From a virus: 64,000 bases of DNA. The stretch lies in IMG/VR virus record IMGVR_UViG_3300017991_000072, positions 35,865 to 99,864 of that record. One strand, 5' to 3'. Each line of letters begins with the position of its first letter. Position 1 is the first letter of the stretch. The notes below the pieces were generated by a model. It saw nothing but the letters and a program-made list of their open reading frames with translations. It did no database searches and was not told the origin of the DNA. Made by a program: the position numbers and the translations under genes. Shown here in pieces: positions 1,264 through 16,324 of this stretch.

Positions 1264-1343
1264 GTAGGCCGCGCCCACGGACGCCCCCACATCTTGGGCC
1301 TGAAAAAAAGTTCTCCCTGGGTCATTTTTTCTTCATTTTTCTC

Positions 1344-1372
1344 TTGACAAATGGACGGGGATGGTTTAGACT
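1344..1372 (+). promoter_or_regulatory. Early rightward promoter P1
   Basis: TTGACA (1344-1349), 17-base spacer, TAGACT (1367-1372). Preceded by the T-rich block (CATTTTTTCTTCATTTTTCTC) shared by the early promoters, which resembles an UP element. An ATG lies 6 bases after the -10 box, in frame with the gene. Confidence 0.8.
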
Positions 1373-1420
1373 ATAGCCATGATGAACGAAGAAACAAACC
1401 CCAAACCCCAGGAGGCCAAG

Positions 1421-1672
1421 ATGATCACCCTGACAGACGAACAGATAGCCGTAGTGGCGGAAGCGGACAGCGTTCATGACTACGCCTGGTCCTACATCAC
1501 CATCAGGAAACAGACCGCGTCCTTCCAGCGGGCCTTCTACCTGGTGGAGACGATGGTTCACAAGGCTGAACACATGGAACTGGCGGAGGACCAGGTGTCA
1601 GGGCTCCAGGTGGCCACGGAATGGCTGAAACATGAGATCAAGAACGCGGGCCACCCAGTAGCCGGACTGTAG
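1421..1672 (+). CDS. Early small protein, unknown function
   Basis: 83 residues from the ATG behind CCCCAGGAGGCCAAG. The frame is also open upstream to ATG 1379, right at the predicted transcription start, which would add 14 residues (MMNEETNPKPQEAK). No recognised domain. The N-terminus (LTDEQIAVVAEAD) resembles that of the gene at 4517 (TEDQLAVIAEDD), so they may be distant paralogs. A GC-rich hairpin (about 1683-1709) separates it from the next gene. Confidence 0.75.
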   Translation: MITLTDEQIAVVAEADSVHDYAWSYITIRKQTASFQRAFYLVETMVHKAEHMELAEDQVSGLQVATEWLKHEIKNAGHPVAGL

Positions 1673-1731
1673 AACCCCACGGGCTCCCTGGGGATCACCC
1701 AGGGAGCCCAGAACCCCAGAAGGAGGACCCC

Positions 1732-1923
1732 ATGATACGGACGAAGAAAGCCAAGAAGGTTCTGACGAAGAAGGAACAGCGCCACCTGACAGAGTCCAAC
1801 ATACACACCATGGCCGCCATGGAGCGCCAGGTGGCCTTCCTGAAGACCTACGAAGGGAACCCCACCATCTATCCCTGTTGGGAGTGTAGGGCCATAGCCC
1901 GGAAGCTTGGTCTGATGGACTGA
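1732..1923 (+). CDS. Small basic protein with a CxxC
   Basis: 63 residues, start behind AGAAGGAGGACCCC. Lys/Arg-rich N-terminus and a single CWEC motif near the C-terminus. Second gene of the P1 transcript. Not recognised. Confidence 0.7.
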   Translation: MIRTKKAKKVLTKKEQRHLTESNIHTMAAMERQVAFLKTYEGNPTIYPCWECRAIARKLGLMD

Positions 1924-1939
1924 CGCCCAGGACCCCCGT

Positions 1940-1977
1940 GACCCCTGGAGAAAAAAATTCTCCAGGGGTCATTTTTT
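1940..1977 (+). terminator. Rho-independent terminator ending the P1 unit
   Basis: 13-bp stem (1940-1952 with 1958-1970) around an A-rich loop, followed by a T run at 1972-1977. It sits directly upstream of the next promoter's -35 box: the first of several near-identical terminator-promoter cassettes. Confidence 0.85.
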
Positions 1978-1990
1978 CTTCATTTTTCTC

Positions 1991-2019
1991 TTGACTTTTC
2001 TGGCTCCCTGGGTTACAAT
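1991..2019 (+). promoter_or_regulatory. Early rightward promoter P2
   Basis: TTGACT (1991-1996), 17-base spacer, TACAAT (2014-2019). An ATG at 2026 lies 6 bases downstream, in frame with the gene that follows. Confidence 0.85.
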
Positions 2020-2067
2020 AAGATCATGGAAACACAGAAAACACCCCAAACCCCCAAGGAGGAGACG

Positions 2068-2460
2068 ATGAACTGGACCAAAGAAATCAGCCAAGAGGCC
2101 GCTGACAAGGTGAAGAAGGCTGGCTACGTGGACCCCACAGCCAACCATCACCTGATCTCTGAAGCCGCCGCTGAAGCCCACACGATCCTGGGCCAGGAGA
2201 TCTTCCTGGCGAAGGACCACGCCTGTGAAGTCAGCGTCCAGATCCCCAAGACGATCACGGATGAATTCCAGGCCACCTATGACGCCTACAAGCTGATCAT
2301 GATGGAGATGGAAGCCATCCACCCGGCCAACAAACCAGAACTGACGCCCCAAGGCTATGACCGCCTGATGGCTGGCCTTCAGGAAAAGGCCGCGCCCCTT
2401 CGTTCCAAGCTTTACTCCCTGGAGATGGTCCTGGTGTCCATCGTCCAGGCCCAGATCTGA
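2068..2460 (+). CDS. Early protein, helical, unknown function
   Basis: 130 residues from the ATG behind AAGGAGGAGACG; the frame is open to ATG 2026 at the predicted +1 (14 extra residues, METQKTPQTPKEET). Mostly Ala/Glu/Lys-rich and probably helical. Not recognised. Confidence 0.75.
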   Translation: MNWTKEISQEAADKVKKAGYVDPTANHHLISEAAAEAHTILGQEIFLAKDHACEVSVQIPKTITDEFQATYDAYKLIMMEMEAIHPANKPELTPQGYDRLMAGLQEKAAPLRSKLYSLEMVLVSIVQAQI

Positions 2461-2527
2461 CGAACCACGGGGGAGGGACCACGGGGGTCCCTCCCCTTCC
2501 CCCAACCCCACAGAGGAGGACAAGAAG

Positions 2528-2962
2528 ATGAAAGCCACCAAGGACCAGATCAGAGGAATAGTAGGAGTCTTCCAGGACATCCTGGCCAAGGCGGAAGACA
2601 AGCTGAACACCAAGGAGATGGAGATGACAGAGCCCTACGCCCACTACACTCCCGCCAAGGACGGAGGGACCTACAGGGCTGTCTGTCTGAATGACCTTCC
2701 CAGTGAAGCCTTCCAGGCCATGGACTCCGCCACGGAGGCCGTCTCCCGCGCCAAGATGGTCATCAGGGAAGGACTCCGCTTCTGGGAATTGGGTCAGATC
2801 TCTGATGAAGACCTGGTCTTCAAGGCCGCCCAGGCCAACGTCAACCTGGCCATGGAGGCCGTGGACAAGGCCCTGGAAGCCCCCAACCCCAGGCCCAAGA
2901 CCAGGCCCAGGCCCATCAAGGCCAGGTTTGGGGAGACCAGGCCAGCGTTCCCCGTGTCATAG
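2528..2962 (+). CDS. Early protein with Pro/Arg-rich tail, unknown function
   Basis: 144 residues, start behind AGAGGAGGACAAG. Helical body, then a tail rich in Pro, Arg and Lys (NPRPKTRPRPIKARFG) that could bind nucleic acid. A stem-loop (GGGGAGGGACC pairing with GGTCCCTCCCC-like sequence, about 2468-2497) lies between it and the upstream gene. Confidence 0.75.
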   Translation: MKATKDQIRGIVGVFQDILAKAEDKLNTKEMEMTEPYAHYTPAKDGGTYRAVCLNDLPSEAFQAMDSATEAVSRAKMVIREGLRFWELGQISDEDLVFKAAQANVNLAMEAVDKALEAPNPRPKTRPRPIKARFGETRPAFPVS

Positions 2963-2971
2963 TTGACACAG

Positions 2972-3009
2972 CCCCCTGGTGAAAAAAAATTCGCCAGGGG
3001 GTCTTTTTT
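2972..3009 (+). terminator. Rho-independent terminator
   Basis: Stem 2972-2983 with 2990-3001 (one G-T pair), A-rich loop, T run 3004-3009, immediately before the next -35 box. Confidence 0.85.
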
Positions 3010-3022
3010 CTTCACTTTTCTC

Positions 3023-3051
3023 TTGACAAATGGGGGACCATGGTTTATAAT
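3023..3051 (+). promoter_or_regulatory. Early rightward promoter P3, full consensus
   Basis: TTGACA (3023-3028), 17-base spacer, TATAAT (3046-3051): a perfect sigma70-type match. In-frame ATGs at 3058 and 3061 begin 6 bases downstream. Confidence 0.9.
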
Positions 3052-3108
3052 AGAGCCATGATGAAGGAAGGAAACAAACCCCAAACCCCCCAAAAGGAGG
3101 AGGACCTG

Positions 3109-3519
3109 ATGATGACCCTTCAAGAAGCTACCGCTGGACTGATCGCTGGAACCGTGACCACGGATGACCTGAAGGTCCAAGGGTTCACGGCTGATGAACT
3201 GATCGCTGTGGTGGAGGCCATCCCGCCGTTCACAGGCTGTCCCTGTTGTTCGGATGAAGAGCCCGGCGCTGACTACGCGGACTTCAACATGTCCCTGTCC
3301 CGTCAGTTGGCCTTGGCTGACGTGAAGGTCTGTGGGTCCTGTGGAGCCATCCACGGAACCGTGGAGACCTGGGAAGCGGCCCACATGGTCTACCACCCCA
3401 CGATGGTGGCCAAGGCCACGGGGGAGGAGATCTACGTGGACCTGACGATCCGTTCAGAGAATGAACGGTTCCATGGCTGGATGGACTCCGCCACCAAGAA
3501 CCTGACCCAGGTTGGCTAG
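3109..3519 (+). CDS. Zinc-ribbon-like early protein
   Basis: 136 residues from the ATG behind AAAGGAGGAGGACCTG; the frame is open to ATG 3058 at +1. The two cysteine pairs TGCPCC and VCGSC, about 38 residues apart, look like a zinc ribbon. Function unknown. Confidence 0.75.
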   Translation: MMTLQEATAGLIAGTVTTDDLKVQGFTADELIAVVEAIPPFTGCPCCSDEEPGADYADFNMSLSRQLALADVKVCGSCGAIHGTVETWEAAHMVYHPTMVAKATGEEIYVDLTIRSENERFHGWMDSATKNLTQVG

Positions 3520-3593
3520 GACCTGGGAGGAAGCCAGGGAGGGACCCGTGGGTCCCTCCCTTCTTCGTTCAACCCCAAACCCAGGAGGAGACG

Positions 3594-3800
3594 ATGACCA
3601 GAGAAGAGGCCCAACGGATGGACCCAGAGGAGGCCAAGCTGAAGGCCAAGAGACTGGCCCAGGAAGCTGATGAACTGATCTCCAAGATGGAACTGGCCCA
3701 CCCCCATTCCCAACGCTACACTGAACTGTGGAACGAACTGACAGCCGTGGAACAGGAACAGCTAGTTCTGACCTGGGCTCCAGGCTACGGAGCCTGGTGA
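3594..3800 (+). CDS. Small helical early protein
   Basis: 68 residues, start behind CAGGAGGAGACG. Charged, predicted coiled or helical. Follows a GC-rich stem-loop (GGGAGGGACCC/GGGTCCCTCCC) at the cistron boundary. Not recognised. Confidence 0.7.
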   Translation: MTREEAQRMDPEEAKLKAKRLAQEADELISKMELAHPHSQRYTELWNELTAVEQEQLVLTWAPGYGAW

Positions 3801-3858
3801 CGGAATAGAGCCCAGGCCCTACCCCTGGCGAACGATCCAGGGGAGGGACCTGGGACGG

Positions 3859-3891
3859 GAGCCCCGGCGTTCAGACCGGGGCTCTTTTTTT
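3859..3891 (+). terminator. Rho-independent terminator
   Basis: 9-bp stem GAGCCCCGG/CCGGGGCTC (3859-3867 and 3876-3884) followed by seven T residues. Confidence 0.85.
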
Positions 3892-3907
3892 GTCTGGATC
3901 CCCTGGC

Positions 3908-3963
3908 CTATGCTCCGCCTCCGCACCGTCCCGGATGTGGTATTATCCCACCACAATGTCAAG
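3908..3963 (+). repeat. Composite intergenic element, copy 2
   Basis: Order: CTATGCTCC, CCGTCCCGGAT (3926-3936), TGTGG (3936-3940), 10-base spacer, CCACA (3951-3955), then GTCAAG (3958-3963). The TGTGG-N10-CCACA dyad and GTCAAG recur at the same spacing near 6.91 and 8.28 kb. Here the second half (CTTGAC) of the GTCAAG dyad is not preserved. Probably a binding site for a phage or host regulator. Confidence 0.65.
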
Positions 3964-4013
3964 AGAAGAGTGAAAAAAATTTCGTCTGGTGTCAAGATTT
4001 CTTCATTTTTCTC

Positions 4014-4043
4014 TTGACTTTTAGGATTGACCTGGGGTATAAT
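4014..4043 (+). promoter_or_regulatory. Early rightward promoter P4 with leader hairpin
   Basis: TTGACT (4014-4019), 18-base spacer, TATAAT (4038-4043). Unlike its neighbours it has a ~90-base leader with no ATG at +1. The leader begins with a perfect 7-bp hairpin (CAGTCAA/TTGACTG, 4051-4069) and ends in the C-rich ribosome-binding motif (4113-4130). Confidence 0.8.
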
Positions 4044-4137
4044 AGGGCCACAGTCAAGATAGTTGACTGGTTGAATTCGGATCTTTGACAACTGAATAAC
4101 GGACACAGAAACCCCCAAACCCCAAGGAGGGAAACCC

Positions 4138-4377
4138 ATGGACGTGTTCTCTGTTCTGATCATCGTGGCTGTGGTTCTGACCAAGGTGGAGGCCCTGGAG
4201 GACGCCCTGGAGGCTTCTGAAGCGGACTTCTTCCCCGCCCAGGTCCTTGTGGTCCTGGTGGCCAGGGACGCCCTGGTGGGAGCCCTGGCGGGCTTCCTGG
4301 AGACGGGAACGGGGCTCCAGGATCTCCTGGACGCGGCCCTGGACCTGGATGACGCCCTGGTCAAGCTGGCGAAGTAG
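4138..4377 (+). CDS. Small hydrophobic/acidic early protein
   Basis: 79 residues, start behind CCAAGGAGGGAAACCC. Starts with a hydrophobic stretch (VFSVLIIVAVVLT), then Leu/Ala/Asp-rich repeats; a membrane-associated helix is possible. Its leader matches the 6.65-kb candidate antisense RNA over 18 contiguous bases. Not recognised. Confidence 0.7.
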   Translation: MDVFSVLIIVAVVLTKVEALEDALEASEADFFPAQVLVVLVARDALVGALAGFLETGTGLQDLLDAALDLDDALVKLAK

Positions 4378-4382
4378 AAACA

Positions 4383-4420
4383 GACCCCCAGAGAAAAAAA
4401 TTCTCTGGGGGTCATTTTTT
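4383..4420 (+). terminator. Rho-independent terminator
   Basis: 13-bp stem (4383-4395 with 4401-4413), A loop, T run 4415-4420; nearly identical to those at 1940 and 5341. Confidence 0.85.
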
Positions 4421-4433
4421 CTTCATTTTTCCC

Positions 4434-4462
4434 TTGACTTTTAGGAATGGGTGGTTTATAAT
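4434..4462 (+). promoter_or_regulatory. Early rightward promoter P5
   Basis: TTGACT (4434-4439), 17-base spacer, TATAAT (4457-4462); in-frame ATG at 4469. Confidence 0.85.
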
Positions 4463-4516
4463 AGGGTCATGATGAACGAAGGAAACAAACCCCAAACCCC
4501 CAAGAAGGAGGAAACC

Positions 4517-4774
4517 ATGAACCAGATGACAACGAAGAAGAACGCGGGAAGAGACATGGTCCGGAAGGTGAAGGCGGAACAGATGTCCTTTGTGACGGAG
4601 GACCAGTTGGCCGTTATCGCGGAGGACGATGAAACCAGGATGACCCCCATCCTTGTCCGCTGTGGGAATGGACGCTTCACGTGTCCCGCCCAGAACGCGG
4701 CCTGGTTCATTGACATCATCACCAAGGAAGGGACGGACTACGTCAGGGACGCCTCCATCTACTCCAGCTACTAG
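4517..4774 (+). CDS. Early small protein, unknown function
   Basis: 85 residues from the ATG behind AAGAAGGAGGAAACC; the frame extends to ATG 4469 at +1 (16 more residues). The N-terminal half resembles the gene at 1421. Not recognised. Confidence 0.7.
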   Translation: MNQMTTKKNAGRDMVRKVKAEQMSFVTEDQLAVIAEDDETRMTPILVRCGNGRFTCPAQNAAWFIDIITKEGTDYVRDASIYSSY

Positions 4775-4788
4775 CCTGAACCCCTCCA

Positions 4789-4826
4789 GCCCCCCAGAGA
4801 AAAAAATTCTCTGGGGGGCCTTTTTT
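4789..4826 (+). terminator. Rho-independent terminator
   Basis: 14-bp stem (4789-4802 with 4807-4820) and T run 4821-4826, directly before promoter P6. Confidence 0.85.
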
Positions 4827-4839
4827 CTTCACTTTTCTC

Positions 4840-4868
4840 TTGACTTTCTTGACGGGGTGGGCTATAAT
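4840..4868 (+). promoter_or_regulatory. Early rightward promoter P6
   Basis: TTGACT (4840-4845), 17-base spacer, TATAAT (4863-4868); in-frame ATG at 4875, 6 bases downstream. Confidence 0.85.
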
Positions 4869-4922
4869 AAGATCATGGAAACAGCGAACAAACCCCAAAC
4901 CCCCAAACCCCAGGAGGACAGA

Positions 4923-5327
4923 ATGTCAGTCACACAGTTCAGCGCGGAAGCCGTTTCCCAGATGGCCCACAGCATAGCCGCCCACGCCCGTCTTGATGAA
5001 GAGTTGGCGGAGATCATCCTGGAGTCCAAGGCGGCCCACCACGCTGGCCGCGTGGAGTTCAACCTGGACACGGATGACGTTTCCTTCAAGCTGGTCCACT
5101 ACATGAGGCTGTCCAACCTGGTGGCCTACTCCATCCAATACCAGGAGCCCATGGTTCCCGTCTACACCATTGATGACTACTACGGGGAACCCCTGGTGGC
5201 CAAGGAGCTGGCGGAGGAAATTGACCACTGGATCTACAACGTCCAGACCAACGCGGGGACCGCCCTGGTGGACCCGCTCTGGTTTGAACTGTTCCAGGCT
5301 GTCAGGGACCACCTGGCCGCGAAGTAG
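4923..5327 (+). CDS. Early protein, unknown function
   Basis: 134 residues from the ATG behind CCAGGAGGACAGA; open upstream to ATG 4875 at +1. Mixed helical/strand composition and no recognised motif. Sole gene of its terminator-promoter cassette. Confidence 0.75.
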   Translation: MSVTQFSAEAVSQMAHSIAAHARLDEELAEIILESKAAHHAGRVEFNLDTDDVSFKLVHYMRLSNLVAYSIQYQEPMVPVYTIDDYYGEPLVAKELAEEIDHWIYNVQTNAGTALVDPLWFELFQAVRDHLAAK

Positions 5328-5340
5328 CCCACGGCCTCCA

Positions 5341-5378
5341 GACCCCCAGAGAAAAAAATTCTCTGGGGGTCATTTTTT
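5341..5378 (+). terminator. Rho-independent terminator
   Basis: 13-bp stem (5341-5353 with 5359-5371), T run 5373-5378. Confidence 0.85.
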
Positions 5379-5391
5379 CTTCATTTTTCTC

Positions 5392-5420
5392 TTGACTTTT
5401 CCCCGGGGATGGGTTACAAT
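5392..5420 (+). promoter_or_regulatory. Early rightward promoter P7
   Basis: TTGACT (5392-5397), 17-base spacer, TACAAT (5415-5420); in-frame ATG at 5427. Confidence 0.85.
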
Positions 5421-5468
5421 AAGATCATGGAAACAGGAAATCAACCCCAAACCCCGAAGGAGCCCAAG

Positions 5469-5699
5469 ATGAAGATGAACCCCAACGGATCAGTCAGTTT
5501 CAGCTATGAAGAGATCGTGGCGGCGGCGGAAGAGACCAAGAAGGCGGAAGCGGCCCGCGCCAACGCGCCCATGATGGCCGTCAGCTATGAAACCCCCGTA
5601 GGGACCTTCAAGGACTGGATCAAGGCGGCGGAGCGCGTGGAGGCTTTGGACATGGACCCCGTGGAGGTCATCAAGGTAGTCAGAACCCCTATCAGCTAA
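5469..5699 (+). CDS. Early small protein, unknown function
   Basis: 76 residues. The ribosome binding site is weaker than usual (GAAGGAGCCCAAG), and the frame is open to ATG 5427 at +1. Ala/Glu-rich; not recognised. First of three genes on the P7 transcript. Confidence 0.7.
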   Translation: MKMNPNGSVSFSYEEIVAAAEETKKAEAARANAPMMAVSYETPVGTFKDWIKAAERVEALDMDPVEVIKVVRTPIS

Positions 5700-5766
5700 G
5701 GACAGGAACCACGCCCCCCCAGGATCCCCTGGGGGGCCAACCCCAACCCCAACGAAGGAGGACACG

Positions 5767-6165
5767 ATGAACAGACAAGCCAAGATCCCCCAGGAGATGG
5801 CCACCTACCTGGTGGACGCGGAGGACAAAGGCTGGACCGGTGGCCAGGTGACCAGGTGGGTCCGGAACTGGATGAAGGACCTAGTCTGGGATGACAAGGA
5901 CCCCCTGGGGGAGTCCGTGGCCGTGACCGTCCCCTGTTCCCTGGTGGACCAATACGGGAAGCTGATGGCCAAGGAGGACGAAGTCAGGACCTTGATGGAG
6001 ACCAGAGCCCAGACCCTTGGCCTGGTGTCCTGTGACCCCAGGTCTGAAGAGTACAGGGAGACCAGGAGGAAACACCTGAACCTAGTCAACGCCCTGGACA
6101 TGGTCAGGGAGTCCAGGAGGAACCTGGAAGACGCCATGACCTGGGTCCTGTTGGCCCAACTGTAG
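5767..6165 (+). CDS. Early protein, helical, unknown function
   Basis: 132 residues, start behind GAAGGAGGACACG. Long charged helices in the second half. Preceded by a boundary hairpin (CCCCCCAGG/CCTGGGGGG-type, about 5714-5738). Confidence 0.75.
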   Translation: MNRQAKIPQEMATYLVDAEDKGWTGGQVTRWVRNWMKDLVWDDKDPLGESVAVTVPCSLVDQYGKLMAKEDEVRTLMETRAQTLGLVSCDPRSEEYRETRRKHLNLVNALDMVRESRRNLEDAMTWVLLAQL

Positions 6166-6216
6166 ACGAACCCAACGCGGCCCCCTGGGGAGACCTGGGG
6201 GGCCAAGGAGGACCCC

Positions 6217-6522
6217 ATGGAAGGACAAGAACCCAAGATGGTCTCCGTCATGGTGGCGGAGAAGCTTCTACAGGATTATGACACGGCCTTGATGGGAGCC
6301 AGGAACATGGAGGGACGCCTATTGAACGCTGAACAGTGTCTTCTCCAGTCCGTCCTGGACTGTGACCAGGAAGCCTATGAAGAGGCCCTGGCCCAGAGGG
6401 ACAGGGTCCAGGCTTCTCTGGACCTGGCCAAGAACCAGGCGGCGGCCCTGTCCGTCACGATAGCCAAGAAGGCCCTTCAAGACTGGATGACCCCAGGGAC
6501 TCCAGTCTTCCCAGAGGATTGA
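6217..6522 (+). CDS. Early protein, helical, unknown function
   Basis: 101 residues, start behind CCAAGGAGGACCCC. Predominantly helical, Ala/Gln-rich. Last gene of the P7 unit; its 3' untranslated region holds an anti-leader hairpin and a terminator. Confidence 0.7.
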   Translation: MEGQEPKMVSVMVAEKLLQDYDTALMGARNMEGRLLNAEQCLLQSVLDCDQEAYEEALAQRDRVQASLDLAKNQAAALSVTIAKKALQDWMTPGTPVFPED

Positions 6523-6523
6523 A

Positions 6524-6581
6524 CCACGGGTCCTCCCGTGGGTTTGGGGTGGGGCTCCCCCAGGGGTGGGGGAGCCCCTTT
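6524..6581 (+). promoter_or_regulatory. Operon 3' UTR: hairpin with TCCT loop, anti-leader G tract, terminator
   Basis: Hairpin CCACGGG-TCCT-CCCGTGG (6524-6541) is followed by GGTTTGGGGTGGGG and an 11-bp terminator stem (6551-6561 with 6568-6578) with a short T tract. The TCCTCC-plus-GGTTTGGGG part is the reverse complement of the early-gene ribosome-binding leader. A module of identical layout lies at 16263-16324. Confidence 0.7.
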
Positions 6582-6584
6582 CTA

Positions 6585-6613
6585 TTGACTTCAGGCGGAC
6601 CATGGTCTACACT
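6585..6613 (+). promoter_or_regulatory. Promoter of candidate small RNA 1
   Basis: TTGACT (6585-6590), 17-base spacer, TACACT (6608-6613), placing the start near 6620. No open reading frame with a ribosome binding site follows before the terminator. Confidence 0.75.
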
Positions 6614-6619
6614 GAAGCC

Positions 6620-6703
6620 TGATCCACAGGGAACGGCGGGGCTTCCCCGTCCTCCTTGGGGTTTGGGGTAGGGGTCCAGGAGGGGTCCTGGACCCCTCTT
6701 TAT
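6620..6703 (+). ncRNA. Candidate small RNA 1, antisense to the shared early leader
   Basis: About 84 nt from the predicted start to a terminator (stem 6671-6681 with 6686-6696, loop GGGG, then TCTTTAT). A small hairpin (6637-6649) is followed by GTCCTCCTTGGGGTTTGGGG (6649-6668), the exact reverse complement of the consensus early leader CCCCAAACCCCAAGGAGGAC. It pairs over 18 contiguous bases with the leader of the 4138 gene (4113-4130), and with a bulge or mismatch to most others. No protein is encoded. The likely job is to block ribosome access to early mRNAs or to trap them. The existence of the RNA is inferred from sequence only. Confidence 0.65.
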
Positions 6704-6716
6704 ATTGTGGTTCTTC

Positions 6717-6745
6717 TTGAACAGCTCCCCCACATGTGGTATGGT
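6717..6745 (+). promoter_or_regulatory. Promoter of candidate small RNA 2, palindrome in spacer
   Basis: TTGAAC (6717-6722), 17-base spacer, TATGGT (6740-6745). The spacer ends in the perfect palindrome CCACATGTGG (6730-6739), which also occurs at 7003-7012 and 8354-8363, so this promoter may be repressed by a protein binding there. Confidence 0.5.
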
Positions 6746-6751
6746 GGAACC

Positions 6752-6840
6752 TGCTAGGGCTGACTTGGTGTCCGTACCAGCGCCGGGTCACTCTGTTTCC
6801 TCCTTTGGGCTCCCCACGCGCCACGGGGAGCCCTTCCCTT
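6752..6840 (+). ncRNA. Candidate small RNA 2 with anti-Shine-Dalgarno segment
   Basis: From a predicted start near 6752 to a hairpin GGGCTCCCC/GGGGAGCCC (6807-6815 with 6825-6833) followed by TTCCCTT. Just before the hairpin is TTTCCTCCTTTGGG, complementary to AAAGGAGGAAA-type ribosome binding sites. No credible open reading frame. Weaker than RNA 1 because the terminator T tract is interrupted. Confidence 0.45.
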
Positions 6841-6880
6841 CTATGTTCCACGTGAAACCCTGACTCCCTGGACCCCCGGG

Positions 6881-7018
6881 CCATGCTCCGGCCGGAGACC
6901 GTCCCGGATGTGGTATTCATCCACCACAACGTCAAGTCCCCACTTGACACGCCCCCCTTCCTCCTCCCCCCTGGTTATGCTCCCCCCAGGAAATCCGGGA
7001 CACCACATGTGGTATACC
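6881..7018 (+). repeat. Composite intergenic element, copy 3 with second half
   Basis: CCATGCTCC, CCGTCCCGGAT, TGTGG (6909-6913)-N10-CCACA (6924-6928), then the perfect dyad GTCAAGT-CCCC-ACTTGAC (6931-6948). Downstream is a second TATGCTCC (from 6976), an inverted ATCCGGGAC and the palindrome CCACATGTGG (7003-7012). Gene-free; probably a regulator-binding region upstream of the 7.1-kb promoter. Confidence 0.65.
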
Positions 7019-7079
7019 CACGGCCACGGACCCCCTACATTTTGTGGTGTCATATAGCGAATTTTTCTACACTGAACCC

Positions 7080-7109
7080 TTGACAACAGGGGGTCCCCTG
7101 GTGTATATT
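7080..7109 (+). promoter_or_regulatory. Rightward promoter P8
   Basis: TTGACA (7080-7085), 18-base spacer, TATATT (7104-7109). Lacks the T-rich upstream block of P1-P7. In-frame GTG (7121) and ATG (7127) precede the ribosome-binding-site start at 7166. Confidence 0.7.
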
Positions 7110-7165
7110 AGGGGTAGATAGTGAGAATGAAACGGACCCCAGAACCCCAAACCAAGGAGGACAGG

Positions 7166-7552
7166 ATGAACGCAAGAACCAACGATGACTTCAGGAAGGA
7201 AGGAACCAGGAAGGCCACGCTGGCGTTCCTTTCCGCCCTGACAGAACAGGAGGAAAGCGGAGAACCCCCGGCCATGTTCATGATCTGTCAACAGAAGAAC
7301 CCCATCACGGGACGGAGGAATGAAGTCAGGTTGACGGCCGGTGTTCAGGCCATGGGAGCCATAGCGGCCGGTCACGTCCTGAAAGCCGTTCATGACTTTG
7401 ACACCTTCACAGAGGATAATGACCCCTACGGGGAACATGACTTTGGGATCGTCAGGATGGAAGGGGAAACCCTGAACTGGAAGATTGATGACTACCAGGG
7501 CTATGATGGGATTGAATTGGTCCTGACCATCATGACGGCCATGGAATACTAG
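7166..7552 (+). CDS. DUF3768 family protein
   Basis: 128 residues from the ATG behind CCAAGGAGGACAGG. The family's conserved blocks are visible in order: NDDFR near the start, VRLTAGVQA, HDFDTFTEDNDPYGEHDFG, NWKIDDY and the C-terminal VLTIMTAMEY. The family is mostly known from Proteobacteria and plasmids; no biochemical function is established. First gene of a three-gene unit. Confidence 0.85.
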   Translation: MNARTNDDFRKEGTRKATLAFLSALTEQEESGEPPAMFMICQQKNPITGRRNEVRLTAGVQAMGAIAAGHVLKAVHDFDTFTEDNDPYGEHDFGIVRMEGETLNWKIDDYQGYDGIELVLTIMTAMEY

Positions 7553-7613
7553 AAACCCCAGGGAGCCCGGCCACGGCCGGGCTCCCACCACCCCCCAAAC
7601 CAAGGAGGACAGA

Positions 7614-7877
7614 ATGGACCCCATCACGAACCCAAGACCCACCACCCACCAATGGAAGGAAGGGGACAGGGTAGCCTTTTCTAAAGCCTTCCTCCGCAAC
7701 ACTGGCCAGTGTGACTATGAAACGGCCAGAGGCCGGGGGACCATCATCAGCGTGGCCCCCGTGGGGGACCTGACCATAGCGTCTATCAGATGGGACGGGA
7801 TAGGTCTGGTCACTAACGTCAACGTGTTGAACCTGTCCCTGGTCACCAGGGACGGGGTAGTTCAGGACAGGGACTAG
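7614..7877 (+). CDS. SH3-like small protein
   Basis: 87 residues, start behind CCAAGGAGGACAGA. The body (GDRVAFSKAFLRNTGQ, then GRGTIISV, ASIRWDG, VNVLNLSLV) has the strand pattern of small phage/plasmid SH3-like proteins often annotated as hypothetical. Separated from the upstream gene by a strong stem-loop (GGGAGCCCGGCC/GGCCGGGCTCCC). Confidence 0.7.
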   Translation: MDPITNPRPTTHQWKEGDRVAFSKAFLRNTGQCDYETARGRGTIISVAPVGDLTIASIRWDGIGLVTNVNVLNLSLVTRDGVVQDRD

Positions 7878-7937
7878 GAAGTCACCAGGGAGCCCTGGCG
7901 CTGGCCGGGGCTCCCACCCCCACCCAAGGAGGACAGG

Positions 7938-8177
7938 ATGGATCTGGAACGCTACAGGGTCTTCACAGCCCAGAAATTCATGGCCATGACCACGGGGGAA
8001 CGCCAGAGGACAAAGCCCACCATGATGTTCAGCCGGGAATACCTGGCCCTGGCCCTGGCGCTGGCCTCTGAAAAGGTCATCATCTATGACGCCCAGGAAG
8101 ACCTGGCGTGGCATTGTGGGGACCTGGTCACGAAGGCGGGATGGTACGATGGGAGCGGACAGCTAGTCAACCCGTAG
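7938..8177 (+). CDS. Small protein, unknown function
   Basis: 79 residues, start behind CCAAGGAGGACAGG. Contains an Ala/Leu-rich helix (YLALALALASEK). Preceded by a boundary stem-loop. Not recognised. Confidence 0.7.
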   Translation: MDLERYRVFTAQKFMAMTTGERQRTKPTMMFSREYLALALALASEKVIIYDAQEDLAWHCGDLVTKAGWYDGSGQLVNP

Positions 8178-8248
8178 CCCTTCACCGGGGACCTGGTGAA
8201 GGGGTCCCCTTGGTTAGCCGGTCCCGGGGAAACCCGGGGCCGGTCTTT

Positions 8249-8400
8249 TTATGCTCCCCTCTGGCCCCGTCCCGGATTGTGGTATACTGTATCCACAATG
8301 TCAAGCCCTGGCTTGACGGGCCGTCTGCTAATCCACGAAAAGCCGGGACGGCCCCACATGTGGTAGGCCCCGTCCACCACCCCTATATTTTGTGGTGTCC
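8249..8400 (+). repeat. Composite intergenic element, copy 4 with inverted half
   Basis: TATGCTCC, CCGTCCCGGATTGTGG, TGTGG (8278-8282)-N10-CCACA (8293-8297), then a perfect 18-bp dyad GTCAAGCC-CT-GGCTTGAC (8300-8317). It is followed by TCTGCTAATC and an inverted CCGGGACGG, the palindrome CCACATGTGG (8354-8363) and TATTTTGTGGTGTC. The TCTGCTAATC...CCGGGACGG half is closely matched at 18088-18113 inside the 17.1-18.8 kb gene. Confidence 0.65.
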
Positions 8401-8427
8401 GTGGGCGTCTTTTTCTTCACTTTTCTC

Positions 8428-8457
8428 TTGACAAAAGGGGAACGCCGGGCGTATAAT
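8428..8457 (+). promoter_or_regulatory. Early rightward promoter P9 with leader hairpin
   Basis: TTGACA (8428-8433), 18-base spacer, TATAAT (8452-8457), behind the shared T-rich block. The leader has no ATG but starts with a perfect 7-bp hairpin GCTGAAC/GTTCAGC (8468-8486), like the P4 leader. Confidence 0.85.
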
Positions 8458-8518
8458 AGACCTGTAAGCTGAACAAAGGGTTCAGCGAAACCCCAACCCC
8501 CAACCAAGGGAGGACAGA

Positions 8519-8716
8519 ATGTTGGTAGCGTGTTACAAGACCAAGAAGGCTTTGAAGGAAGCCGTGGGACAGGCTCTTCTATATGAAGAGACTTCCTTGT
8601 TCGGGGAGGAATACCGCCCGGACGGGACGTTCCCAGTGGTAGGCCCCGGGGCCTATGAGCGTAAATGGTACGCGGAAGTTACCATGAAGGGAGGGAAGAT
8701 CCACAAGGTCAAGTAG
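8519..8716 (+). CDS. Conserved small protein of phage/plasmid type
   Basis: 65 residues, start behind CAAGGGAGGACAGA. The layout (YKTKKALKEAVGQ, EETSLFGEEY, GPGAYERKWYAEV) matches a small widespread protein I have seen in phages and plasmids without assigned function; recognition is from memory of the pattern. Confidence 0.75.
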   Translation: MLVACYKTKKALKEAVGQALLYEETSLFGEEYRPDGTFPVVGPGAYERKWYAEVTMKGGKIHKVK

Positions 8717-8775
8717 GAACCTGAACCGGCCCGGGGCTCCGGCCCCGGGCCATTCTTCCAACCAAGGGAGGAACC

Positions 8776-9060
8776 ATGAACACACAAGAGACCCTAGAAT
8801 TCACTGGACACCAGATGGCCCGGGCCAATACGGTCCTGTCAAGCCTTGACGGAGCTGGCCCTATGTCCGTCTGTAAAGCCGCCGCCGTGGCCCAGAAGGC
8901 CAACCAAATAGCGGAAAGCCTACCAGCCCTTGACAAGCTGGCCGGACACCTTGAAAGCCATCCTGATGACCCCGTGGCCCTTCTGGCCGTTCAAGCCTAT
9001 ACCGTGGCCGTGGGCGTCCACCTTGACCTTCTGGAACTGACCCTTCAAATGACCCTATAG
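8776..9060 (+). CDS. Small helical protein, unknown function
   Basis: 94 residues, start behind AAGGGAGGAACC. Helical, Ala/Leu-rich. Last gene of the P9 unit. Confidence 0.7.
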   Translation: MNTQETLEFTGHQMARANTVLSSLDGAGPMSVCKAAAVAQKANQIAESLPALDKLAGHLESHPDDPVALLAVQAYTVAVGVHLDLLELTLQMTL

Positions 9061-9094
9061 CCTCCCCCCAGGGGGGAGGAATTCCCCCTTGGTT

Positions 9095-9130
9095 GGCCCC
9101 GGTCCCTTCTGGGACCGGGGCCTTTCTTTT
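9095..9130 (+). terminator. Rho-independent terminator
   Basis: Perfect 12-bp stem GGCCCCGGTCCC/GGGACCGGGGCC (9095-9106 with 9111-9122) then TTTCTTTT. Confidence 0.9.
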
Positions 9131-9274
9131 GTCAACCCCAGACTTGACATAGTGGTGTGCAAATGTCATTTTCCGTCCCGGACGTTGACCGTTTCCCAGG
9201 GCTCCCAGAGCGGAGCGGAGCGGAGCGGGTCCCCGTAGGGGACCACGGCCCCCGTCCCATCCGGGACGGGGGCC
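9131..9274 (+). repeat. Composite element, divergent copy, with GAGCG tandem repeat and 12-bp dyad
   Basis: Imperfect dyad GTCAACC/ACTTGAC (9131-9148, 18 bp as in the other copies), CCGTCCCGGACG (about 9172-9183), a pentanucleotide run of GAGCG units (9208-9228) and a perfect 12-bp inverted repeat GGCCCCCGTCCC/GGGACGGGGGCC (9247-9258 with 9263-9274). Gene-free. No T tract follows the dyad, so it is more likely an operator than a terminator. Confidence 0.5.
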
Positions 9275-9367
9275 GGGAACCGCATAGAGAGAAGAGACCG
9301 GAACCGGACCCGGCCGGACCCACCTGAAAAAAAATTCGCGGGAGGACGTTTTTTCTTCACTTTTCCC

Positions 9368-9396
9368 TTGACTTTCGTTCTGGGATGGTTTAGAAT
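9368..9396 (+). promoter_or_regulatory. Early rightward promoter P10
   Basis: TTGACT (9368-9373), 17-base spacer, TAGAAT (9391-9396), behind the T-rich block; in-frame ATG at 9406. Confidence 0.85.
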
Positions 9397-9447
9397 AGGG
9401 GTGTAATGAGGAAACGAAACACACCCCAAACCCCGAAGGAGGCCAAG

Positions 9448-10362
9448 ATGGCAACACAGAGCGGACAGGACAAGGTTTTCCAGATCTTCACAGACCAGAT
9501 CATGGACATGTTGGAAGAGGGGACGGTCCCCTGGCGTCAACCTTGGAAGGGCGGGAAGATCCCCATGTCCTTCCAGACCAAGCGGCCCTACCGTGGGATG
9601 AACGTCTGGTTCCTGAACAGCGTGGCCATTCATCGCGGCTACACATCCAACTGGTGGGTGTCCCTGAAGTCAGTGAAGAAGGCCAAGGGCTGGATCAAGG
9701 ACGATGAATTCAAGAAGTCAGTGACCGTGATCTTCTGTAGGCCCAAGCGGTACGAAGTGGAGACGGACGAAGTGGACGAACAGGGCCAGCCGGTCAAGGA
9801 AGAGCGGATGTCCTTCATCTACTTCTACCACACGGTATGGAACATGGACCAGGTGGAAGGGATGACGGCCCCTGACGCGGACCAGGACGCGGAGGAGCGG
9901 ACCCCCAACCAGATCCTTGAAGAGGCCCAGGCCATCATTGACGGCTACCAGAACGGCCCAGAGATCAGCCACGGCGGGACCAGGGCTTTCTATCGTCCCT
10001 CTGATGACTCCGTGACGGTCCCAGAGATGGAACTGTTCCAGGACAGCGAGAACTACTACCACGTGATGTATCATGAACTGGCACACTCCACGGGTCACGG
10101 TTCCCGCCTTGGGCGGAAGGGAGTCATGGACCTGACCATGTTTGGATCCCATGACTACTCCAAGGAGGAACTGGTGGCGGAGATGGGAGCGGGCTTCCTG
10201 GGAGCCCTGGTGGGACTGACCCCCAGGACCATTGACAACACGGCGGCCTACATCCAGTCCTGGCTGAAGGCCCTGAACGATGACAAGCGGCTCCTGGTCT
10301 ACGCGGCCAGCAAAGGCCAGGCGGCGGCGGAACACATCCTGGGCGTGACCTGGGAAGGATAA
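9448..10362 (+). CDS. ardC: ArdC-like antirestriction protein
   Basis: 304 residues from the ATG behind CGAAGGAGGCCAAG; open upstream to ATG 9406 near +1. The N-terminal domain (VPWRQPW near 27-33, RPYRGMN, NWWVSLKSVKKAKGW) is the ssDNA-binding DUF1738 part of ArdC. The C-terminal part is a zincin-like metallopeptidase with HELAHSTGH (His209, Glu210, His213), followed by the usual YSKEELVAEMGA helix that should supply the third ligand. Known ArdC proteins protect incoming plasmid or phage DNA from type I or II restriction, so early expression makes sense. Family assignment is firm; activity is inferred. Confidence 0.92.
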   Translation: MATQSGQDKVFQIFTDQIMDMLEEGTVPWRQPWKGGKIPMSFQTKRPYRGMNVWFLNSVAIHRGYTSNWWVSLKSVKKAKGWIKDDEFKKSVTVIFCRPKRYEVETDEVDEQGQPVKEERMSFIYFYHTVWNMDQVEGMTAPDADQDAEERTPNQILEEAQAIIDGYQNGPEISHGGTRAFYRPSDDSVTVPEMELFQDSENYYHVMYHELAHSTGHGSRLGRKGVMDLTMFGSHDYSKEELVAEMGAGFLGALVGLTPRTIDNTAAYIQSWLKALNDDKRLLVYAASKGQAAAEHILGVTWEG

Positions 10363-10437
10363 CAGGGAGGAAGCCTGGGAGTCCCACAGTGGGGCTCCCA
10401 GGCCCTTCAAACCCCAAACCAGAAGGAGGACAGAACG

Positions 10438-10911
10438 ATGGAACAGACAGACTACACAGCGGACAGAGAACTGGCGGTCAAGGCCCTGGAACAGATGGAC
10501 TACATCCACCTGGAACGCGGACAGGTGGCGGCCCTGGTGGACACCTACCGGGTCATCACCACCCATAACCCTGGCGCGGTCCCAGGCCATGAAGAGGAAC
10601 TAGGGACCCTGGCCGGGCTCCTGGTCATGAGCGTAGGAACTGGCGTCAAGCTGATCCCAGAGGACGGACCCCCCAACGTCCGGGTGGGAGTCCCCAGGCT
10701 CCTGGTGGAAGCCATCAAGGACATCAACATCCAGAGGGACAAACTGGCGGCCTACAAGGAGGAACACAAGGACGGAGGAGGACCAATAGACCCCAAGTCC
10801 ATGGAAGTCCTGGAGGCCCAACAGGCTACCCACAGGGCGGCCCTTTCCACGGCCCTGGTCAACGTCATCATCACGGACTTGGCTGGAATGGCGGACGCTG
10901 GAAGCTACTAG
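10438..10911 (+). CDS. Helical protein, unknown function
   Basis: 157 residues, start behind GAAGGAGGACAGAACG, downstream of ardC on the same transcript after a boundary stem-loop (GCCTGGGAG/CTCCCAGGC). Mostly helical; not recognised. Confidence 0.75.
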   Translation: MEQTDYTADRELAVKALEQMDYIHLERGQVAALVDTYRVITTHNPGAVPGHEEELGTLAGLLVMSVGTGVKLIPEDGPPNVRVGVPRLLVEAIKDINIQRDKLAAYKEEHKDGGGPIDPKSMEVLEAQQATHRAALSTALVNVIITDLAGMADAGSY

Positions 10912-10928
10912 ACTGACCCTCCCCCACA

Positions 10929-10968
10929 GAGCCCCGGCCCGGTTCGTCCGGTCCGGGGCTCTTCTTTT
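10929..10968 (+). terminator. Rho-independent terminator
   Basis: Stem GAGCCCCGG/CCGGGGCTC (10929-10937 with 10953-10961), extended by an inner pairing, followed by TTCTTTT. Its T tract runs into a TATGC...CGTCCCGGAT composite motif (10968-10995). Confidence 0.85.
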
Positions 10969-11004
10969 ATGCGGGCCGGGACTAGCGTCCCGGATATACG
11001 CCAT

Positions 11005-11033
11005 TTCCCACGGTCCCCATCACGTGGTAGACT
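11005..11033 (+). promoter_or_regulatory. Probable rightward promoter P11
   Basis: TTCCCA (11005-11010), 17-base spacer, TAGACT (11028-11033), immediately downstream of a partial composite element (TATGC at 10968, CGTCCCGGATATAC at 10986-10999). Weak -35, so it may need an activator. In-frame ATG at 11038. Confidence 0.45.
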
Positions 11034-11052
11034 ATGGATGAAAGGAGATCCC

Positions 11053-11355
11053 ATGACCTACACTCTATCCCAGGCGGGGACGGCCTACGCTGAAGCGGCG
11101 GCCACGTGGGCCAGGGCTATGGAAGCGGAGGAGGCGGTCAGACAAGAAGGCCCTGACCTGAAGGTTGACAAGTTCCTCCACGTGACGGCCTTGTCCACAG
11201 TGATCCGCCAGGCTATGAACGGCCTGTCCCAGGCTGTCATGATCTTCATCTGGCGAAACAACGAAGGGAACCACGCGGTCCTGGAAGCGGCCATGGCGGA
11301 GACTATCCGCGTGACGGCGGACGCCAACGCCCTTATGGACTCCTACGGATACTGA
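11053..11355 (+). CDS. Helical small protein, unknown function
   Basis: 100 residues from the ATG behind AAAGGAGATCCC; ATG 11038 is in frame upstream. Ala-rich and helical. Single-gene unit between two terminators. Confidence 0.7.
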   Translation: MTYTLSQAGTAYAEAAATWARAMEAEEAVRQEGPDLKVDKFLHVTALSTVIRQAMNGLSQAVMIFIWRNNEGNHAVLEAAMAETIRVTADANALMDSYGY

Positions 11356-11363
11356 ACCCCCTG

Positions 11364-11448
11364 GACCCCTGGGCCACCAATGACTGTTTATTAACCCTGA
11401 ACTGTCATTCTGTTGTTACCGGTTATCAGGCCCAGGGGTCTTTTCTTT
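11364..11448 (+). terminator. Terminator with an unusually long loop
   Basis: Perfect 12-bp stem GACCCCTGGGCC/GGCCCAGGGGTC (11364-11375 with 11429-11440) then TTTTCTTT. The 53-base loop is AT-richer than its surroundings and contains its own AATGAC/GTCATT dyad, as if sequence was inserted into the loop. Confidence 0.7.
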
Positions 11449-11545
11449 CCCCCACGCGGGCGCGGGCGGGCGCGTGGGCGCGTATACGCGGGCGCGGGGC
11501 TCCTGAAAAAAGTTCTCCCAGGGCGTTTTTTTCTTCACTTTTCTC

Positions 11546-11574
11546 TTGACATCCGTGGACGGGTCCCCTATAAT
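11546..11574 (+). promoter_or_regulatory. Early rightward promoter P12, full consensus
   Basis: TTGACA (11546-11551), 17-base spacer, TATAAT (11569-11574); in-frame ATG at 11582, 7 bases downstream. The upstream sequence (11450-11500) is an alternating GC-rich run. Confidence 0.9.
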
Positions 11575-11626
11575 AAGGACCATGGACACAGCGACAAACC
11601 CCAAACCCCAAACCACGGAGGACAAC

Positions 11627-11965
11627 ATGTCCACACTGAACGCCCTTGGAACCCTTCTCTACAGCCTCCCCGTTCCCACCCGTCACGCCTACACCATCAC
11701 CATCTGTGACCAATACCAGGACACAGAGCCTACCACCTGTGTGGTCAACGCGGAGACCCAGGGCGCGGCCCTGGCCAAGGCTGTGGAGGTCTACTCCACA
11801 GAATTCTACGGCCACGCGGTCACCCTGGACCCCCAGGTCCTTCATGACGCTGTCACCGTCATCTTCCATCCTGACGGCGGCGTGAACCCCGTGGGGTTCT
11901 TCGCCAGTGACCCCCAACCCATCCGCCTTCAGCGCCTTGGGGACCCTGTCCCCTTGTCCGCGTAA
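11627..11965 (+). CDS. Early protein, unknown function
   Basis: 112 residues from the ATG behind CACGGAGGACAAC; open to ATG 11582 at +1 (MDTATNPKPQTTEDN). Mixed alpha/beta composition; not recognised. Confidence 0.75.
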   Translation: MSTLNALGTLLYSLPVPTRHAYTITICDQYQDTEPTTCVVNAETQGAALAKAVEVYSTEFYGHAVTLDPQVLHDAVTVIFHPDGGVNPVGFFASDPQPIRLQRLGDPVPLSA

Positions 11966-12031
11966 GCGGACCCCCTGGGGGGTGGGAATTCTCCCACCCC
12001 CCGGCTGGAACCCCAAACCCAGGAGGACATC

Positions 12032-12232
12032 ATGGACCAAGTCAAGAAGAGCCTGACCAAGAAAGCCCTGAAGGCCAAGCTGAACCAAGCCAGGGAAGAG
12101 CTGACCTACCTGGAGGACTTCCTGGCGGGACCCTGTTGTGTGTCCCACGCGGAGATTGACGCGGCCGGGGATGACACCTACAGGCTTCAGAAGGAGATCA
12201 GGGAGCTGAAGGAGGCCCTGGCGGCCCTGTGA
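12032..12232 (+). CDS. Small coiled-coil protein
   Basis: 66 residues, start behind CCCAGGAGGACATC, after a stem-loop boundary. Two helical segments around GPCCVSHAEID; could form a helical hairpin. Not recognised. Confidence 0.7.
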   Translation: MDQVKKSLTKKALKAKLNQAREELTYLEDFLAGPCCVSHAEIDAAGDDTYRLQKEIRELKEALAAL

Positions 12233-12272
12233 TCTTTTTTTCGTCAGGCGGCGTTTTTTCTTCACTTTTCTC

Positions 12273-12301
12273 TTGACAAAGCCTGAAGGATGGTTTACAC
12301 T
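12273..12301 (+). promoter_or_regulatory. Early rightward promoter P13
   Basis: TTGACA (12273-12278), 17-base spacer, TACACT (12296-12301), behind the T-rich block; in-frame ATG at 12308. No terminator stem precedes it, so the upstream unit may read through. Confidence 0.85.
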
Positions 12302-12346
12302 TACACCATGGACACAGACCGCAAACCCCAGACCCAGGAGGACACG

Positions 12347-12955
12347 ATGAACGAAGATCACATCACCCAAGAGGCCACGCGGCGGCTGGAAGCCCTTCAC
12401 CCCTACCTGACCAGGGAGATCAAGCTGGCTCCCCCGTCTCCCCCAGAGAAGACGGCTGAAGAGTACAGGGAAGAAGCGGCCCGTCACGCGGCGGAGCGCC
12501 TACGGTCCCAACAGGAGTCAGACACGGACGGGTTCCTGTCCCAGTGGGCCAGCGGCCTGAACAGTTCCCTGGCGTCCAGGCGGGCGGAGATCAAGGAGAA
12601 CGGCGGGAACTGGGAGTTCTGGGGACTCTACCGTAGGGCGGACGGGAAGCGGATCAGGGCCAAGATGATAGACGGGAAGTATGGCCTCTGTTGGGCCATC
12701 TGTGACGAACATTCCACCTTCACGGGTCAGTTCTTCTCCGTGGACGGGACGGGCTCCAAGAGGACCAAGCTGTGGAAGGCTGGCCTGGAAGAGCGGCGTG
12801 AAATGGCCCCGGCTTGGGCCAAGATGGACGGGAAGGGAACGGGCCTGTCAGGTCAGGCTTGGGTGTCCACCTACAGGATAGACGGCGGCTACCCCTTGGA
12901 CGCGGTCAACCTGGACTCCCCCGTGGAGGACCCTGACCCCACGCCGGACCCATAG
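12347..12955 (+). CDS. Protein of unknown function ending at a possibly leaky TAG
   Basis: 202 residues from the ATG behind CCAGGAGGACACG; open to ATG 12308 at +1. Helical N-terminal half, then a strand-rich part (GKYGLCWAICDEHSTFTGQF). The TAG stop at 12953-12955 is followed in the same frame by 63 open codons encoding a zinc ribbon. Not recognised. Confidence 0.75.
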   Translation: MNEDHITQEATRRLEALHPYLTREIKLAPPSPPEKTAEEYREEAARHAAERLRSQQESDTDGFLSQWASGLNSSLASRRAEIKENGGNWEFWGLYRRADGKRIRAKMIDGKYGLCWAICDEHSTFTGQFFSVDGTGSKRTKLWKAGLEERREMAPAWAKMDGKGTGLSGQAWVSTYRIDGGYPLDAVNLDSPVEDPDPTPDP

Positions 12956-13147
12956 CCTTCCCCCAAGAAGGCCAAGAGGACGGAAGCGGAACTACGGCGG
13001 GACCTTTCCGCCATCATGAGGGGTCACAGAGTATGTCAGGACTGTGGCCAGGTCAGGCCCACGGCTGAAGTCCACGTCCCTGGACGTGGGATGGCTAGGG
13101 TCTGTCAGGACTGCTATGACGTGGCTGTCTATGAACTGACGGCCTAA
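12956..13147 (+). other. In-frame zinc-ribbon extension downstream of a TAG (readthrough product or start-less ORF)
   Basis: Continuous with the preceding frame: basic helix (PKKAKRTEAELRRDLSAIM), then CQDCG and VCQDC about 20 residues apart, ending at TAA 13147. The only ATG (13016) lacks a ribosome binding site, unlike almost every other gene here. Either TAG readthrough, a stop mutation that split one gene, or a weakly started 43-residue protein. Confidence 0.45.
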
Positions 13148-13177
13148 CCCCAACCCCCAGGACAGGAGGAAGGAACG

Positions 13178-15398: not shown

Positions 15399-15606
15399 AG
15401 GAGAACTGGAAGAGCGCGGGATTGAAATTGATCTGTCAGGTCCCCAGGGGAACGGGTTTGTCCTGATTGGGTACGCCAGGAAATGGGCCAAACAGTTGGG
15501 GAAGGACGCGGACGCCATCACCAAGGACATGGAGTCAGGAGACTATGACCACCTGGTTGAAGTCCTGGAACGGGAGTTTGGGGACTACGTCACCATCTAC
15601 AGGTAG
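15382..15606 (+). CDS. Small acidic protein, unknown function
   Basis: 74 residues, start behind GAAGGAGAAGGAA, overlapping the upstream stop. Not recognised. Confidence 0.65.
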   Translation: MAIKDRGELEERGIEIDLSGPQGNGFVLIGYARKWAKQLGKDADAITKDMESGDYDHLVEVLEREFGDYVTIYR

Positions 15607-15615
15607 GAGCCCAAG

Positions 15616-15825
15616 ATGAAACACATCAGACTGGGAAGACCCCAGGTCTTCAACGTCCAGACAGGTGACGAAAGATGCTACTTCTGTGACAAGCCACCCA
15701 CGGGGGCCTGTAGGAGCTGTGGAGCCCACGTCTGTGACGATCATGACGAACACCAGGGACAGGACGGGAAGCCCTGTCCCACGGGGAGCGTCCACGGAGC
15801 CCCGAAGGAGGACGCTGATGGCTAA
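15616..15825 (+). CDS. Small zinc-finger protein (paralog of the next gene)
   Basis: 69 residues, start behind TAGGAGCCCAAG. CYFCDKPPTGACRSCGAHVC then DDHDEH: a CxxC...CxxCxxxVCxxH pattern typical of treble-clef/B-box-like zinc fingers. The next gene has the same block. Confidence 0.75.
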   Translation: MKHIRLGRPQVFNVQTGDERCYFCDKPPTGACRSCGAHVCDDHDEHQGQDGKPCPTGSVHGAPKEDADG

Positions 15826-16246: not shown

Positions 16247-16262
16247 AGAGTCTACATGAAGC

Positions 16263-16324
16263 CCACAGGTCCTCCTGTGGGGTTTGGGGTGGGGAGCCCG
16301 GAGGGGTCCGGGCTCCCCTTTTCT
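16263..16324 (+). promoter_or_regulatory. Operon 3' UTR: hairpin with TCCT loop, anti-leader G tract, terminator
   Basis: Hairpin CCACAGG-TCCT-CCTGTGG (16263-16280), then GGTTTGGGGTGGGG, then a 12-bp terminator stem (16291-16302 with 16307-16318) and TTTTCT. Same stem length and loop as 6524-6541, with an A-T pair replacing a G-C pair. TCCTCCTGTGGGGTTTGGGG (16270-16289) is nearly the reverse complement of the early leader. Confidence 0.75.

Follow-up and report, generated by a model that had tools for sequence, protein, structure and literature searches.

In Listeria, LhrC1-5 are multi-copy small RNAs whose unpaired UCCC motifs pair with the Shine-Dalgarno (SD) regions of several mRNAs, and the small RNAs RsaE and RNAIII of Staphylococcus carry C-rich loops. 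Multi-copy anti-SD small RNAs are known in bacteria, LhrC being an example (PMC4132741). In Staphylococcus aureus an anti-SD motif in the 3' UTR of icaR pairs with the SD sequence and blocks ribosomes, and this pairing, in cis or in trans, yields a substrate for RNase III (PMC3868564). Among phages, the c4 RNA of P1/P7 and the sar RNA of P22 are antisense RNAs that block translation initiation of phage genes, with c4 presenting its antisense sequences in loops against the ribosome-binding-site region (PMC12197685). Cluster K mycobacteriophages carry a conserved start-associated sequence (SAS) of unknown function before 11-19 genes, together with one inverted copy per K1 genome that lies away from any gene start; its discoverers left open whether the binding partner is RNA or protein (PMC3203893).

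An initial annotation of the locus described here had proposed a small RNA antisense to a leader common to many early phage genes, and had stated that no phage system of this kind was described. This was too strong, since c4 and sar were known (PMC12197685), as was the inverted copy of the start sequence in cluster K1 (PMC3203893). A search of open-access papers turned up no antisense family whose target is a leader that a set of early phage genes have in common. A multi-copy antisense family directed against the leader of ~20 genes thus appears to be new, no precedent having been found.

We analysed a window of 64,000 nucleotides, which forms the last part of a virus record of 99,864 bases. 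The early genes at ~1.4-16.2 kb run rightward, most of them in short units of transcription that have strong promoters of the sigma-70 type as well as intrinsic terminators; they include a DUF3768 gene (7166-7549) and an ArdC-like antirestriction/metallopeptidase gene (9448-10359). In the interval 1.4-13.2 kb a common leader precedes 20 rightward genes, where at least 15 had been claimed. Its C-rich element (typically ACCCCAAACCCC) lies a few nucleotides upstream of a GGAGG-type SD sequence, giving the pattern CCCCAAACCCC...GGAGG. The leaders, all on the + strand, belong to the genes starting at 1421 (leader 1391-1420), 1732 (1702-1731), 2068 (2038-2067), 2528 (2498-2527), 3109 (3073-3108), 3594 (3564-3593), 4138 (4108-4137), 4517 (4487-4516), 4923 (4888-4922), 5469 (5439-5468), 5767 (5737-5766), 7166 (7136-7165), 7614 (7584-7613), 8519 (8489-8518), 9448, the ArdC-like gene (9418-9447), 10438 (10408-10437), 11627 (11597-11626), 12032 (12002-12031), 12347 (12317-12346) and 13178 (13148-13177). 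The exact consensus CCCCAAACCCCAAGGAGGAC is absent from every leader. When up to three mismatches were allowed, the leader consensus occurred six times in the window (both strands), compared with 0.03 occurrences expected from shuffles. Apart from the 20 leaders, with their C-rich element and SD sequence, the contig contained only three weak look-alikes, on the other strand. The leader sequence is present in 20 forward copies and in three inverted copies that lie away from gene starts.

Other repeated features mark the early intergenic regions. At the 1.4-13.2 kb junctions between co-transcribed early genes a strong hairpin lies just upstream of the leader and may serve as a partial terminator or an RNA insulator. 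Near-identical terminators with an A-rich loop (1938-1972, 2971-3002, 4383-4413, 4789-4819 and 5341-5371) are each followed by TTTTTTCTTCATTTTTCTCTTGAC, the terminator, T-rich stretch and next early promoter making up one repeated module. A further intergenic repeat, ATGCTCC-N~12-CCGTCCCGGATGTGGTAT, often accompanied by CCACATGTGG palindromes, is found at ~1227, 3907, 6883, 6975, 8251 and 17932 and resembles an operator or a second class of promoter.

The inverted copies, c1, c2 and c3, all read antisense to the leader on the + strand. Only c2 has its own promoter and an intrinsic terminator with no coding sequence between them. Both signals were found as the initial annotation had reported them: an early-type promoter, TTGACT-17-TACACT (6585-6613), and a terminator with a 12-bp stem and an A[GGGG]U loop (6670-6697), which delimit a predicted anti-leader RNA of ~85 nt (6620-6703). 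Its 20-nt antisense core, GTCCTCCTTGGGGTTTGGGG (6649-6668), is indeed the exact reverse complement of the leader consensus, and the anti-leader parts of the RNA are GUCCUCC and GGGGUUUGGGG. The longest match to c2, 18 nt, is in the leader of the gene starting at 4138; the 18 contiguous bases claimed there form a single run within 4113-4132, the leader stretch nearest to the consensus, which has two mismatches overall. In a promoter model trained on the 12 other early promoters, with 6585 left out, the c2 promoter ranked 13th in the contig and was the best match after the training set (22.3 bits; the next matches scored 19.9, 19.5 and then 13.7). It includes a ATGGTTTA-type sequence ahead of the -10 element. 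The T-rich upstream stretch present at most early promoters is missing, and the c2 promoter may therefore be weaker. The minimum-energy fold predicted for c2 pairs part of the antisense core with sequence upstream, leaving the core only partly open.

The other two copies, c1 (6524-6578) and c3 (16262-16318), each lie directly before a terminator. c1 lies in the 3' UTR of an early operon: a hairpin, CCACGGG[TCCT]CCCGTGG (6524-6541), directly follows the stop codon of gene 6217-6522, overlaps the antisense core GTCCTCCCGTGGGTTTGGGGT (6530-6550) and is followed by a terminator (6551-6578). c3, which closes the last early operon, is built in the same way: the hairpin CCCACAGG[TCCT]CCTGTGGG (16262-16281) comes straight after the stop codon of the final gene in the early array, the core is GTCCTCCTGTGGGGTTTGGGGT (16269-16290) and the terminator occupies 16291-16318; both terminators have the 12-bp stem and A[GGGG]U loop of c2. 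The earlier reading of one antisense RNA serving the whole gene set is thus modified: an antisense small RNA is still the best-supported interpretation, but it concerns three elements, of which two lie in 3' UTRs.

All three elements follow one plan. In the DNA, GTCCTCC comes first, then a short spacer, GGGTTTGGGGT and a terminator in which a 12-bp stem carries a loop with a closing A-U pair; in the RNA this reads as GUCCUCC, GGGUUUGGGGU and a GGGG-loop terminator hairpin. No other hairpin in the contig combines the A[GGGG]U loop, the 12-bp stem and a T tail. The terminator stems diverge among the three elements yet retain 12 pairs and the identical loop. The antisense bases are invariant (18 of 18, versus 20 of 50 other columns; p = 3e-6). 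In c1 and c3 a perfect hairpin of 7-8 bp has UCCU as its tetraloop and shows one compensatory change, from G-C to A-U. The motif GTCCTCC-N1-5-GGGTTTGGGG occurs three times on the + strand of 1301-16400 and never in 300 dinucleotide shuffles; in unrelated viral and bacterial contigs it turned up by chance 124 times, never with a terminator after it. No fourth true copy emerged, in the contig or in its relatives, from a covariance model built on the three elements. One candidate at 6745-6845, in which GTTTCCTCCTTTGGG stands directly before a terminator-like hairpin, was not counted because its RNA lacked a preference for early over late gene starts; it contains an 11-nt perfect complement to the leader of gene 4517.

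The elements share features with each of the described systems. Like c4 and sar they are phage-encoded and antisense to a ribosome-binding site, here as predicted from sequence, and an antisense presented in a loop is found in c1 and c3, with c2 only partly open. In contrast to c4 and sar, which target one mRNA (ant), the three copies face the leader of ~20 genes; among the Rfam families of known phage antisense RNAs none matched the window at gathering score, the matches being at chance level. The resemblance to LhrC, RsaE and RNAIII lies in an unpaired anti-SD motif directed at several mRNAs and in the existence of a multi-copy family, here with three homologous copies. However, those RNAs are chromosomal and stress-induced and their complementarity is confined to the SD sequence, whereas the phage elements extend through the leader-specific C-rich element; LhrC itself is not homologous to them, as judged by the lack of an Rfam match. 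As in icaR, an anti-SD motif is located in the 3' UTR directly after the stop codon in c1 and c3, though not in c2. The icaR motif is 7 nt long and belongs to one mRNA, compared with 18-21 nt in three phage elements of which one is free-standing.

The copies, promoter, terminators and complementarity are read directly from the DNA, and folds and binding energies were computed. The longest perfect complementary run, averaged over the 20 leaders, was 10.0-11.2 nt for the three elements; ~2000 random 63-mers from the same strand gave a mean of 5.3 nt and a maximum of 8.1. Binding energies were calculated as dimer partition functions, plain RNAduplex energies with opening costs having been dropped because unrealistically long duplexes were chosen. 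Median predicted energies of the three elements for early versus late gene starts were -11.9 and -2.7, -13.8 and -1.6, and -14.9 and -5.3 kcal/mol (p below 2e-9). Of three control terminators, two unrelated ones displayed no such preference and the third, at 3857, a smaller early preference. When the antisense part was shuffled 60 times, the energy of the element was reached by none of the shuffles for c3, two for c2 and 14 for c1. A comparison with shuffled controls, as outlined in the initial annotation for c2, thus set c2 and c3 apart but not c1, because a G-rich RNA binds C-rich leaders anyway. Part of the predicted binding signal is thus composition. By these models the complementarity of the elements appears to be beyond chance and leader-specific, with the energy of c1 taken alone not exceeding that of its shuffles.

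The only relatives found were contigs of 39, 68 and 23 kb with 74-91% protein identity, all of which end short of the early region. A DNA search of a phage collection, searches of viral contigs with three early-region and flanking proteins, and searches with the DNA polymerase, alone and as an alignment, yielded no relative covering that region; DNA-pattern scans of viral and genome contigs returned matches that were unrelated or due to chance. One relative (G002) spans the end of the record (window position 64000) into its start, and the genome is therefore circular or circularly permuted.

The next-best covariance-model matches point to the origin of the family. Most of them were hairpin-plus-leader cassettes from the junctions between co-transcribed genes, read as reverse complements (1673-1737, 7880-7942, 7548-7615, 5702-5769, 11981-12037, 10362-10439 and 8719-8781). 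The most probable origin of c1, c2 and c3 is therefore inversion of cassettes of this kind. Inversion would provide a simple route to an antisense regulator; equally, it could leave complementarity as a relic. The three inverted cassettes might now be only terminators, the antisense stretch being a passive remnant, and both the predominance of cassettes among the next-best matches and the alignment by eye of elements with reverse-complemented cassettes would fit such a history. We nevertheless consider it unlikely, if the most serious of the alternatives, as it leaves unexplained the dedicated early promoter of c2, which has nothing else downstream, the unchanged antisense bases in elements whose stems diverge, and the UCCU-loop hairpins, which are missing from the cassettes. 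These three features argue for function.

A function of c1 and c3 could instead be confined to their own mRNA, whose translation and decay would be controlled by pairing between 5' and 3' UTR with little action in trans. icaR is a proven precedent (PMC3868564), each of the two elements immediately follows a stop codon, in a 3' UTR, and good binding is predicted within their own operons (-16.2 kcal/mol for c1 with the 5469 leader and -20.5 kcal/mol for c3 with the 12347 leader). However, the c2 transcript contains no gene, other operons have different terminators, and predicted binding is equally strong to the leaders of other operons, which makes this arrangement quite improbable. It is more improbable still that the four G tracts serve as an RNA G-quadruplex or a phage-protein site with the leader complement being secondary: all three elements match a four-tract G motif, but the motif is also present elsewhere in the region, tracts three and four belong to the 12-bp terminator stem and loop, which would need breaking, and the invariant GTCCTCC is not accounted for. 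On the minus strand the elements do read as leader sequences with an SD, as though they preceded leftward genes. This we regard as scarcely credible, given that none of the three is followed by a sensible reading frame, the T tails of the terminators belong to the + strand and the genes at 1.4-16.2 kb run rightward.

We put at slightly better than even the chance that c1, c2 and c3 are a family of trans-acting anti-SD RNAs that repress the ~20 genes with the shared leader. For this family we infer, from the arrangement of the sequence, transcription of the anti-leader RNAs, their action in trans, the resulting repression, a role for RNase III and the timing of events. The UCCU(CC) of an element would pair with the SD sequence and GUUUGGGGU with the C-rich part upstream, a pairing that would exclude the ribosome and probably expose the double strand to RNase III, as in icaR. 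All genes with the shared leader could in this way be turned down together. Since the c2 promoter is of the early class, c2 would be made alongside its targets and may act as a stoichiometric brake; it may also clear leftover early mRNA after early transcription stops. Action in cis or in trans is conceivable for c1 and c3, as is action once processing has released them.

The cluster K mycobacteriophages offer a parallel that is suggestive only, by analogy. There too a ribosome-binding leader is repeated in a single orientation, and the rare inverted copies are not at gene starts. The sequence and host are unrelated, and the 13-bp SAS GGGATAGGAGCCC is not matched by the leader described here; moreover, no recognised terminator follows the inverted SAS, its match extends over ~10 nt, and it has been lost in some subclusters that keep the SAS. 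We located it in Adephagia, Anaya, Angelica and CrimD, in an intergenic gap that in Angelica and a few others overlaps a small annotated hypothetical gene. The copy occupies the 10-nt loop in GCGCGG[CCTCCTATCC]CCGCGC, which sits atop a longer stem (fold z-score -5.2), and the region around the copy is present in 177 records. Among 17 aligned phages the exact loop is found in eight, Amgine and Hammy have altered pyrimidine-rich loops and the others have lost the loop; TBond007 retains 18 SAS copies though its loop is lost. A universal role for the loop is disfavoured because some subclusters are without it. Covariation of the stem is modest, with two pairs changed on both sides and a covariation score reached by 36 of 500 shuffles, and Rfam contained nothing beyond chance for the region. 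In the Microbacterium cluster EF phage AnnaSerena we detected a SAS-like leader and no inverted copy above chance. The segment L041:33450-33830 and its homologues in the 177 mycobacteriophage records are conserved, mostly unannotated intergenic DNA with a TTTTAGACT box and several conserved hairpins, and are likely to represent an unrecognised structured RNA.

The anti-leader RNAs, with their early-class promoter at c2, invariant antisense bases and UCCU loops, would if real place ~20 scattered phage genes under post-transcriptional control by one RNA sequence. The genes would have been given a common leader, and the same leader inverted would be their regulator. Such control would also offer a reason for the strongly conserved repeated start sequences of some phages, open since the SAS was reported in 2011, and would point to an RNA that can be tested in mycobacteriophages that are in culture and genetically tractable. 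Whether phages repeatedly evolve such an address tag for a regulon, with an early-gene leader matched by an inverted-leader antisense RNA whose loop in K1 is the inverted SAS, is a speculation that we think rather doubtful. If true, it would also explain what the SAS is for.
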